Source: a virus. Taken from it: 42,689 nucleotides of DNA. A program made the position numbers and the translations under genes. Under the pieces are notes generated by a model. The model saw nothing but the letters and a program-made list of their open reading frames with translations. It had not been told where the DNA came from and made no database searches. Shown in pieces: positions 36,373-42,689 of the stretch. Each line of letters starts with the position of its first letter. Positions within the stretch are counted from its first letter, which is position 1. Where the stretch lies: IMG/VR virus record IMGVR_UViG_3300046010_006259, positions 1 to 42,689 of that record. One strand, 5' to 3'.

Positions 36373-36380
36373 CGAATTTA

Positions 36381-36690
36381 CATGGTTCACATGGTTCACC
36401 CTTCGTTTTTGAACCGTGTGAACCATGATTGAACCATGTGAAAAAAATAACATGGTTCAAAAAATTTCTTTTAATTTCATCCTCTTATCTACTATTGAAC
36501 CATGAACCATGTTATTTTAGTAAAAGAGTATAGAGAGAGAGAAAGGGGAGGTAGAGAGGGGGTAGAATAGGCTCAGGGGATAACAATAGGCTTTTTTCAT
36601 GGTTCACATGGTTCAAACGCTGTAGACTTTTGATTTTGAAAAGGAAATAGCGCACCATGTATTTTTTTTAATCACGGTCAACACGGTTCT
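36381..36690. repeat. iteron-like cluster of CATGGTTCA repeats, candidate replication origin
   Basis: The 339-bp gap after the primase/helicase gene has nine exact copies of CATGGTTCA or its complement. Forward: 36381, 36390, 36451, 36598, 36607. Reverse: 36419, 36430, 36496, 36503. A one-mismatch copy starts at 36410, and weaker CACGGTTC-type copies lie at 36673-36690. Two pairs are direct head-to-tail repeats. The middle has a polypurine tract (about 36532-36566) and A+T-rich stretches. The layout fits an origin bound by the adjacent replication protein; a multi-operator control region is the alternative. Confidence 0.7.
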
Positions 36691-37304: not shown

Positions 37305-38003
37305 ATGAACGCATTAGCACAAACAACTGAACTCACAATGTCAAGCAAAGAAATTGCTGATGTGACCAAATCTCGCCACGATAAGGTGAAACAATCAATG
37401 GAGCGTTTGCAGGAAAAAGGTGTAATCAGTTTTACCCCAATGGGGGAAAACCCCACCCAGCAGGGAGGTAGACCCGGCATTGTCTATCATGTCAACCAAC
37501 GCGATAGCTACATTGTAGTGGCTCAGATTGACGCCAAATTTACAGCCGCGTTAGTAGATCGCTGGATGGAACTTGAAGGTATCACTAAGCAAAAACCGCT
37601 TTCTGTGGATGCGCCTTTCAAACTGGGCAAGACGGCTTTCGGTTTTTACAAGATGATCGGACTAGATAAGAACGCGGCTGCACTAGCTGCAAACAATGCC
37701 GTCGTTAGCATGACTGGGACTAATCTTTTGGCAGCGGGAGGTACGCTGCATTTAGAATCCGAAAGCCAAGAGCATTGGTATAATGCAACTGAACTGGGTA
37801 GCATGGTTGGCTTAACGCCCAATGCAATGAATTTGCATCTTCAAGATGCTGGATTGCAATTCAAAATTGCAGGTAAATGGACAGCTACGGAGGCTGGATC
37901 TCAATACTCTAGAATTTTCGATGTGTCAAAGAGTCATAACACCGGAATTCCAGTAACTCAGCTTAGATGGTCTAAAAACGTTTTGGAGGTTGTCCATGTC
38001 TGA
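37305..38003 (+). CDS. Rha-family phage regulatory protein
   Basis: A 232-residue protein. The N-terminal domain (LTMSSKEIADVTKSRHDKVK; GRPGIVYHVNQRDSYIVVAQ; ALVDRWMELEG) is the Rha type, a winged-helix-like DNA-binding domain of phage regulators and antirepressors. The C-terminal domain (WYNATELGSMVGLTPNAMNL; LQFKIAGKWTATEAG) resembles another module of phage antirepressors. In phage P22-related systems Rha interferes with growth in IHF-deficient hosts; here regulation of early genes is inferred. GGAGG precedes the ATG, just after the terminator. Confidence 0.88.
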   Translation: MNALAQTTELTMSSKEIADVTKSRHDKVKQSMERLQEKGVISFTPMGENPTQQGGRPGIVYHVNQRDSYIVVAQIDAKFTAALVDRWMELEGITKQKPLSVDAPFKLGKTAFGFYKMIGLDKNAAALAANNAVVSMTGTNLLAAGGTLHLESESQEHWYNATELGSMVGLTPNAMNLHLQDAGLQFKIAGKWTATEAGSQYSRIFDVSKSHNTGIPVTQLRWSKNVLEVVHV

Positions 38004-38328
38004 CTTGCACCGAAAAGGCGTTAAGGACGACTCAGGCAAGATCTTGGCGGGAGTGCTGGCTGATTTTGCGAAAGCCCTTGAGAGCGTCGCTACGGTCGGC
38101 ACATACGGCGCGGCTAAGTACACGAGGGGAGGGTGGATCTCTGTCCCTGACGGGCAGCAGAGGTACACGGACGCACTATGGCGGCATCTACTGGCGTCCA
38201 GCTACGAGGAGGTTGACCCTGAAAGCGGCATACCTCACCTGCATCACGCGCTTTGGAACCTGATAGCTGTAGTCGAACTCAAGAGCAAGACAGCTTCGAG
38301 ACTTTGGCAGGAGGACTGCAAGGACTGA
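37996..38328 (+). CDS. dATP/dGTP diphosphohydrolase-like protein (DUF5664 type)
   Basis: A 110-residue protein starting at ATG 37996 with GGAGG 6 nt upstream, overlapping the rha-type gene by 8 nt. Blocks KGVKDDSGKILAGVLADFAK, VGTYGAAKYTRGGWISV, RYTDALWRHLLAS and SGIPHLHHALWNLIAVVEL match the phage family annotated as dATP/dGTP diphosphohydrolase N-terminal domain, which includes helices of MazG-like topology. It probably trims the purine dNTP pool. No PurZ-like gene is present, so diaminopurine DNA is not implied. The reading direction ends here at a non-coding repeat region. Confidence 0.8.
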   Translation: MSDLHRKGVKDDSGKILAGVLADFAKALESVATVGTYGAAKYTRGGWISVPDGQQRYTDALWRHLLASSYEEVDPESGIPHLHHALWNLIAVVELKSKTASRLWQEDCKD

Positions 38329-38360
38329 GGGGAGGTCAAGGGGAGGTCAAGGGGAGGTCG
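38328..38360 (+). repeat. three tandem 11-bp repeats
   Basis: AGGGGAGGTCA occurs at 38328-38338 and 38339-38349, and AGGGGAGGTCG at 38350-38360. The first overlaps the last base of the coding sequence before. The period is one helical turn, so GGGG tracts sit on one DNA face. Confidence 0.85.
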
Positions 38361-38400: not shown

Positions 38401-38451
38401 AGCCAAAAATCGCCAAAAATCGCCAAAAATCGGCAAAAATCGGCAAAAAAA
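38401..38451 (+). repeat. five A-tracts phased at 10 bp (predicted curved DNA)
   Basis: Five near-identical 10-mers (SGCCAAAAAT/CGGCAAAAAT type) place A5 tracts at 38405, 38415, 38425, 38435 and 38445 (the last has seven A). Exact 10-bp phasing of A-tracts gives intrinsic DNA curvature, common at origins and regulatory sites. Confidence 0.85.
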
Positions 38452-38529
38452 CATAAGGAAATGCTAATATAGATATTTCCTTATAAATCAATAACTTGTA
38501 AATAGTCAATAAAATCAATGGGTTATGCC

Positions 38530-39000
38530 CTCAGGCCCTCAGGCCATGCTCTCAGGCCCTCAGGCCATGCTCTCAGGCCCTCAGGCCATGCTCTCAGGCC
38601 ATGCTCTCAGGCCCTCAGGCCATGCTCTCAGGCCCTCAGGCCATGCTCTCAGGCCATGCTCTCAGGCCCTCAGGCCCTCAGGCCCTCAGGCCCTCAGGCC
38701 CTCAGGCCCTCAGGCCCTGTCCTGTCCTCAGGCCCTGTCCTGTCCTCAGGCCCTCAGGCCCTCAGGCCATGCTCTCAGGCCCTCAGGCCCTCAGGCCCTC
38801 AGGCCCTCAGGCCCTCAGGCCCTGTCCTGTCCTCAGGCCCTCAGGCCCTCAGGCCCTCAGGCCCTCAGGCCCTCAGGCCCTCAGGCCCTCAGGCCCTGTC
38901 CTGTCCTCAGGCCCTCAGGCCCTCAGGCCCTCAGGCCCTCAGGCCATGCTCTCAGGCCCTCAGGCCCTCAGGCCATGCTCTCAGGCCCTCAGGCCATGCT
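38530..39000. repeat. 471-bp array of 47 CTCAGGCC octamers with two spacer types
   Basis: The array parses completely into 47 copies of CTCAGGCC, 11 copies of the spacer ATGCT and 4 of CTGTCCTGTC (two CTGTC pentamers), totalling 376+55+40 = 471 bp with no mismatch. Octamer runs of 7, 6, 8 and 5 occur. The bottom strand reads GGGCCTGA repeated, i.e. G3 tracts with 5-nt loops. All three forward frames are open only because the units contain no stop; no ribosome site precedes the ATG at 38518. The sequence from 38361 to 38529 around it is A+T-rich and non-coding. Confidence 0.95.
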
Positions 39001-39035: not shown

Positions 39036-39069
39036 AAAAAAAAAACCCGGCGATATCGCCGGGTTTTTT
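39036..39069. terminator. bidirectional intrinsic terminator
   Basis: CCCGGCGAT and ATCGCCGGG (39046-39063) form a perfect 18-bp palindrome flanked by ten A (39036-39045) and six T (39064-39069). It works in both directions and separates the rightward early genes and arrays from the leftward cluster. Confidence 0.93.
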
Positions 39070-39346: not shown

Positions 39347-39601
39347 TTATCGCCCTAATAGTAAATCCCGAATTGTGCGTATTTCATCAGGATACGACTG
39401 TCCAGCGCAGTATTCGACATCAGGTCGAATCCATACGCGATCATAAATTGCAAAACACTCTTGGTTATATTTTATAGCATAGAATAGTCGGTTTTTTGTC
39501 TTGTTATGGCAGCGAGCGCCCAATAAACTAACAAGCGCATTTAATTCATCTTCTGTTAAATCTCGGTTTTGTGTTGCATCATTTAGAGTATATGGTTTCA
39601 T
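39347..39601 (-). CDS. 84-residue hypothetical protein
   Basis: Starts at ATG 39601 (MKPYTLNDATQNRDLTEDEL), just after the clamp-like gene stops; an in-frame ATG at 39616 lies inside that gene. It includes NALVSLLGARCHNKTKNRLF, YAIKYNQECFAIYDRVWIRP and ends RTIRDLLLGR. Small alpha-beta protein, no family recognised. It begins a run of very small coupled genes. Confidence 0.7.
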   Translation of the reverse strand: MKPYTLNDATQNRDLTEDELNALVSLLGARCHNKTKNRLFYAIKYNQECFAIYDRVWIRPDVEYCAGQSYPDEIRTIRDLLLGR

Positions 39602-39602
39602 G

Positions 39603-40154
39603 TTATATTGCCTCATAATCTGGAATAGACGGCTTGCCTGAAACCCGCATTGCCATAATCAAGCCGTGGACCTCACCGGCTGAGAATACAAGCCTGTCGC
39701 TTGTATGCCACACACTAAAGTCAGACTTCTGGAATTTGGCGCAATCACCGATCCTACTATACAATTCCGGGTTTATCTTCAAGCCCGTAGACTCTTGTAC
39801 GTTTTCCATTTTCCATACCCTTTTCACGTCTGGAAAACGTCCATCCTCGCTTTTATAGGATAGCATCGAATCCCTATACCCAATGTTATCGCTTGAAATA
39901 CCTAATAATTCTATCTTGTTTTTTGGCTTTAATTTAAGCGCAGAATTGACTGTTATTGCTGGGATTATAACTTCGAAGGGCTGACAATCGACCGCTATAC
40001 CTGAAGCAAAAGCCAAACATGCACCATCGGAAGATTCTATTATGAAACGTGATCCATCAGTTTTTAAATGGATACCTGATAAATAATAACGTACATCCTT
40101 TTTTGCCATAAAAAGGCTAATAGACTGAAAAACTGATTTTTGAATATATAACAT
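39603..40154 (-). CDS. sliding-clamp (DNA polymerase III beta)-like protein
   Basis: A 183-residue protein. The block DVRYYLSGIHLK, TDGSRFIIESSDGACLAFAS matches the conserved 'D-x-R-Y-Y-L-x-G-V...T-D-G-x-x-L' repeat of bacterial beta clamps, and EVIIPAITVNSALKLK fits the next strand and helix. It is half the usual DnaN length, so it may hold one or two clamp domains, or be a clamp mimic. It could help the phage polymerase or interfere with the host clamp. It is far from the other replication genes. Start: ATG 40154 with AAGGGA upstream; ATG 40109 is possible. Confidence 0.7.
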   Translation of the reverse strand: MLYIQKSVFQSISLFMAKKDVRYYLSGIHLKTDGSRFIIESSDGACLAFASGIAVDCQPFEVIIPAITVNSALKLKPKNKIELLGISSDNIGYRDSMLSYKSEDGRFPDVKRVWKMENVQESTGLKINPELYSRIGDCAKFQKSDFSVWHTSDRLVFSAGEVHGLIMAMRVSGKPSIPDYEAI

Positions 40155-42590: not shown

Positions 42591-42689
42591 GACCCAGTGA
42601 CCCAGTGACCCAGTGACCCAGTGACCCAGTGACCCAGTGACCCAGTGACCCAGTGACCCAGTGACCCAGTGACCCAGTGACCCAGTGAC
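42591..42689. repeat. terminal array of the octamer GACCCAGT
   Basis: Twelve perfect tandem copies of GACCCAGT plus three bases run to the last base of the window. The bottom strand reads GGGTCACT repeated: G3 tracts with 5-nt loops, the same geometry as the 38.5-kb array. The array may continue beyond the edge or mark where assembly failed. Confidence 0.95.

Follow-up and report, generated by a model that had tools for sequence, protein, structure and literature searches.

Phage T7 carries the SRL and SRR elements, terminal heptamer arrays of about 12 short imperfect repeats that lie at both ends of the genome beside the terminal repeat, and replication origins of the P4-alpha type have iterons. 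At a more general level, De Melo et al. (2020; cited in PMC8002715) report that 85% of phage genomes contain tandem repeats. In corynephage CL31, a 42-bp repeat is present in 4, 6 or 8 copies between plaques, and the region resisted assembly; the repeat belongs to a tail gene and encodes 14 aa per unit (PMC8002715). In phage PhiTE, expanded pseudo-ToxI repeats block a host toxin, and the expansion is attributed by the authors to strand slippage (PMC3475682).

The window analysed here is an entire virus record of 42,689 bases (IMG/VR IMGVR_UViG_3300046010_006259), which has lambda-type portal, capsid and tape-measure genes. At positions 38530–39000 it contains an array of 471 bp. Exact tokenisation resolves this array, with zero residue, into 47 copies of CTCAGGCC, 11 of ATGCT and 4 of CTGTCCTGTC, which confirms the mismatch-free decomposition given in the original prediction. 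With CTCAGGCC, ATGCT and CTGTCCTGTC written as A, B and C, the unit order is AABAABAABABAABAABABAAAAAAACACAAABAAAAAACAAAAAAAACAAAAABAAABAAB. The sequence CTGTCCTGTC is better read as two copies of CTGTC; the array is then composed of one octamer and two pentamers, and every spacer has a length divisible by 5. On the left, the array can be extended to 38525, as ATGCC at 38525–38529 is a single change from ATGCT. Identity at a lag of 8 is 0.72 in the array versus 0.26 ± 0.05 for 400-bp tiles over the whole window, and outside the array CTCAGGCC is seen once in the window (about 0.5 expected). The head-to-tail arrangement of the 8 bp units, all in a single orientation, is confirmed to be far beyond chance. 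The array had also been termed perfect; the octamers are indeed all identical, but their periodicity is interrupted by two types of spacer. At its full length the array is the longest of all those met in the analysis.

Like T7 SRL and SRR, this is an array of short repeats in a phage genome, but the T7 elements are terminal and imperfect, whereas the window array is interior and perfect. The head-to-tail copies resemble those of the phage minisatellites of CL31 and, as cited in PMC8002715, of Brevibacterium aurantiacum phages (De Melo et al., 2020). In contrast to the coding repeat of CL31, the window array is intergenic and has 8 bp units, 47 copies and two spacer types. With the PhiTE pseudo-ToxI repeats it shares the property of a non-coding phage tandem repeat. 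The PhiTE unit, however, is about the size of the 36-nt RNA pseudoknot, is present in few copies and has a known toxin target, and nothing similar is seen in the window.

The array sits in a non-coding gap of ~1 kb, with a pyrophosphohydrolase-like gene on the plus strand at one side and convergent minus-strand genes at the other (Table 1). The gap also contains an 11-bp repeat, a 10-bp repeat, an AT-rich stretch and a terminator-like hairpin. The 10-bp repeat adjoins the array and has five A5 tracts phased at exactly 10 bp, which would be expected to give intrinsically bent DNA. The terminator scan yields a count no higher than that in shuffled sequences, and the hairpin is thus sequence-level evidence only. 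The first convergent open reading frame has no Pfam or PHROG match.

Table 1. Features of the octamer array region (positions in the window)
Feature	Position	Strand	Basis
Upstream flanking gene, dATP/dGTP pyrophosphohydrolase N-terminal-like (PF18909)	37990..38328	+	Pfam E 2.1e-21
11-bp tandem repeat AGGGGAGGTCA x2.9, begins where the upstream gene ends	38328..38359	+	TRF
10-bp tandem repeat GCCAAAAATC x4.8	38402..38449	+	TRF, A-tract positions
Octamer array including variant first pentamer	38525..39000	+	Exact tokenisation, TRF
Near-palindromic terminator-like hairpin, GC stem CCCGGCGA-TATC..., A/T runs on both sides	39040..39069	.	Terminator scan, 13-bp stem
First convergent ORF downstream, 89 aa, no family	39347..39616	-	ORF list

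The replication module of the source phage comprises PolA, an Enc34-type ssDNA-binding protein, DUF2800, an SNF2-like helicase and a VapE primase. The nearest relatives among annotated phages are Acinetobacter phage 4316, Bordetella phage BPP-1, APSE phages and Yersinia phages, with about 45–57% identity of PolA and primase over the aligned part. In a comparison of the portal protein with 369 genomes of one class, the best match reached 43% identity and did not single out a host; a terminase gene was not recognised on the contig. At 42591–42689 the contig end cuts through another perfect octamer array, 12.4 copies of GACCCAGT. Four copies of GACCCAGT also adjoin a VapE homologue in another viral locus (L018, 3660–3692), and because of this the GACCCAGT array may be an origin-type repeat.

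The pair CTCAGGCCCTCAGGCC is present in eight IMG/VR stretches, and true arrays are found in only two of these, L011 and L014. The two represent one phage, unrelated to the source phage, and are 99.3% identical although they come from two metagenomes. Their array shares CTCAGGCC with the window array, is also intergenic, and adjoins a terminator-like hairpin and a convergent gene in the same relative orientation; it reaches a contig end. Unlike the window array, it has five octamer types in a strict 8-bp register without pentamer spacers (L014 13122–13495, L011 1–200): 14 copies of CTTACACC, followed by CTCAGGCC, TGCACGCC, ATGAGGCC and CTGAGGCC, with the order kept over the shared part. Among the relatives that share the replication module, none has an array of this kind at the same place. 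A blastn search of the array against annotated phages gave no match, but the low-complexity filter probably masks the query and absence is not implied.

Control scans place this recurrence in context. A scan for any of 16 sister octamers (CWSAGSCY) in four tandem copies matched 20 IMG/VR contigs from about 12 lineages, the lineages being our own grouping by shared flanks. As 16 sister octamers gave about 12 lineages, the one other lineage for CTCAGGCC is ordinary. Pattern scans at periods 7 and 9 matched 15 and 16 contigs, similar yields, and period 8 is thus not clearly privileged; the scan patterns share a core and represent a sample of GC-rich units, not a census. Perfect 7-, 8- and 9-bp arrays with many unrelated units were found across IMG/VR phages, and the unit sequence differs between phages. 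A conserved cross-phage motif was accordingly rejected for CTCAGGCC. Among related viral loci totalling 1.37 Mb, perfect arrays of period 5–20 reach no more than 57 bp, and the sole one of period 8 is 22 bp. Long perfect arrays had been held to be very rare in compact phage genomes; that view is wrong, as they are individually uncommon yet widespread in the IMG/VR scans. A host array was considered as a source and rejected. At least 119 bacterial stretches have three nearby copies of CTCAGGCC, but in those examined the octamer mostly belongs to some other short repeat and period-8 runs do not exceed about 5 copies; three such bacterial genomes have no perfect CTCAGGCC pair.

The window array is probably an intergenic, non-coding minisatellite in a tailed-phage genome, grown by slippage or recombination with the help of hairpins. 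In comparable arrays of other phages, close relatives differ in copy number by whole units. There are 12 versus 11 copies of CTCAGCCT in one pair of loci with flanks 96.5% identical (L243 and L251), 11 versus 16 copies of CACAGGCC in a second (L246 and L249) and an array of about 250 bp versus 85 bp in a third (L248 and L256), flank identity being about 90% in the latter two. In the relatives of the L014 phage, the region upstream of the terminase is occupied by unrelated repeats whose units measure 7, 16 and 19 bp. GGCC-CTCA-GGCC hairpins form when the window array is folded as single-stranded DNA (z = -2.1). Hairpin-capable units and whole-unit changes in comparable arrays both support the slippage locus and the recent expansion that were originally proposed. 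Two further tandem repeats share the same gap and there is no coding match, and these observations also support a minisatellite.

In such a model, a duplication of CTCAGGCC would grow via replication slippage and/or recombination between copies, and hairpins formed in single-stranded DNA would favour slippage. Turnover would homogenise the copies faster than point mutations build up, with the pentamers ATGCT and CTGTC perhaps being variants carried along. The array may be tolerated because it is placed between gene ends beside a terminator-like hairpin. The slippage model draws on other phages and on the array sequence, not on observation in the source phage; copy-number change is known only from other phages because no close relative of the source phage was found. 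Counting against a minisatellite, the array is longer than any other met, and block duplication within the unit order, which would be expected from multi-unit slippage, is not significant. That the genome contains two octamer arrays could also point to a cause specific to this phage. The comparisons across viruses suggest that the array is an unusually long example of common, fast-changing repeat DNA and not a dedicated device.

The octamers might instead bind a phage or host protein and concentrate or sequester it, the array then being a secondary origin or a site for packaging, partition or titration. This is unlikely. Many origins carry A-tracts or AT-rich stretches, and both phased A-tracts and an AT-rich stretch are present just upstream of the array; in addition, the same octamer is arrayed in an unrelated phage with matching orientation to the hairpin and convergent gene. 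However, CTCAGGCC arrays are no commoner than sister-octamer arrays and nothing sets CTCAGGCC apart, relatives with the same replication module lack the array, and the nonamers that follow VapE already provide an origin-type cluster. A more specific version, in which the array is a selected, copy-number-dependent platform for a DNA-binding protein, the octamer arose twice via the same protein and the pentamers set the spacing, is very doubtful.

The nonamers, ten copies of ACATGGTTC, are at 36380–36690, directly downstream of the VapE primase. At least five copies of some nonamer follow VapE in 67 of 68 distinct related loci (L144–L223), versus 1 of 120 control stretches, as counted on either strand, one mismatch allowed, over the 300 bp that follow the matched region. 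There are 5–11 copies per locus in both orientations; the sequence is phage-specific and the position is kept. The pattern looks like a replication origin of the P4-alpha type, and no description of it was found in the literature searched. The window array resembles these nonamers and the P4-alpha iterons in that all consist of short direct repeats placed between phage genes. The VapE-linked repeats differ in that they are 9 bp in length, number about 8 copies and are found in both orientations directly after the primase, whereas the array has 8-bp units in one orientation and is 2.2 kb from VapE, beyond the ~300-bp downstream zone that the nonamers occupy. Since origin-type repeats linked to the primase, the likely origin of the source phage, sit elsewhere, the proposed role of the array as a replication element is disfavoured. 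In our view, the nonamer pattern downstream of VapE is of more interest than the octamer array. Another nonamer array was encountered in Acidovorax phage ACF1 (MZ547449; L141, 1–175), whose annotated linear genome begins within repeats of GTGCAGGTG, about 14 copies and then about 5; this start reflects either the real end of the genome or a break in the assembly.

It is highly improbable that assembly created the array and that the real genome has none or a much shorter one. The contig terminates inside the GACCCAGT array, which is perfect over 99 bp, and within the main array no exact internal repeat exceeds 98 bp. Both lengths are near the usual k-mer limits of assemblers (perhaps k was 99, which is a guess), and the figure of 47 denotes copies as assembled. 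No second contig of the source phage was found for comparison in an IMG/VR search, which may omit very near records. On the other hand, shuffled unit orders have a mean longest repeat of 91–92 bp; a 98-bp repeat is ordinary and therefore not a sign of collapse. Short-read assemblers usually shorten such arrays and do not lengthen them, and the CTCAGGCC array of the other phage was recovered from two independent metagenomes with equal unit order over the shared part. The array likely exists in the real genome.

A transcribed repeat RNA that acts as an antitoxin mimic or decoy is extremely unlikely. A functional repeat expansion is known in PhiTE (PMC3475682), and in the window a terminator-like hairpin follows the array. 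There is, however, no promoter-like site before the array, RNA folding is no better than in shuffles (z = -1.0), and no toxin-like gene was recognised adjoining it. The octamers also fall far short of the 36 nt of the ToxI pseudoknot unit, and type III antitoxin repeats of the ToxI type were rejected on these properties. Equally slight is the chance that the array encodes a disordered LRPSGPQA-repeat protein. All three plus-strand frames are open (ORFs of 171, 160 and 137 aa), but this is because the unit is stop-free and its length is not a multiple of 3; moreover, the spacers shift the frame, the first ATG has no evident ribosome site and there is no PHROG match. The restriction decoy put forward in the original prediction is disfavoured and was rejected because outside the array GGCC is frequent, if mildly under-represented (119 seen, 166 expected), and neither CCTNAGG (2 seen, about 5 expected) nor CTCAGGCC is clearly avoided. 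As a group, functional readings of the array are not supported.

The window array, taken as a minisatellite, is a striking example of an already known type of feature. Environmental phages do contain long, perfect arrays of short units, and these are found more widely than one genome would suggest; their units are not conserved and whole-unit copy number changes quickly. Contigs often end where such arrays lie, short-read assemblies probably undercount them, and they may serve as strain markers. By themselves, short-unit arrays are no evidence of a new mechanism. Should protein binding to the array prove true, the question of function would reopen.

Outside the array, the window has a further peculiarity of site composition. 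The sequence AGGCCT (StuI site) is entirely absent there, where an order-2 Markov model gives about 8.8 expected copies, and this absence is a possible sign of restriction pressure.
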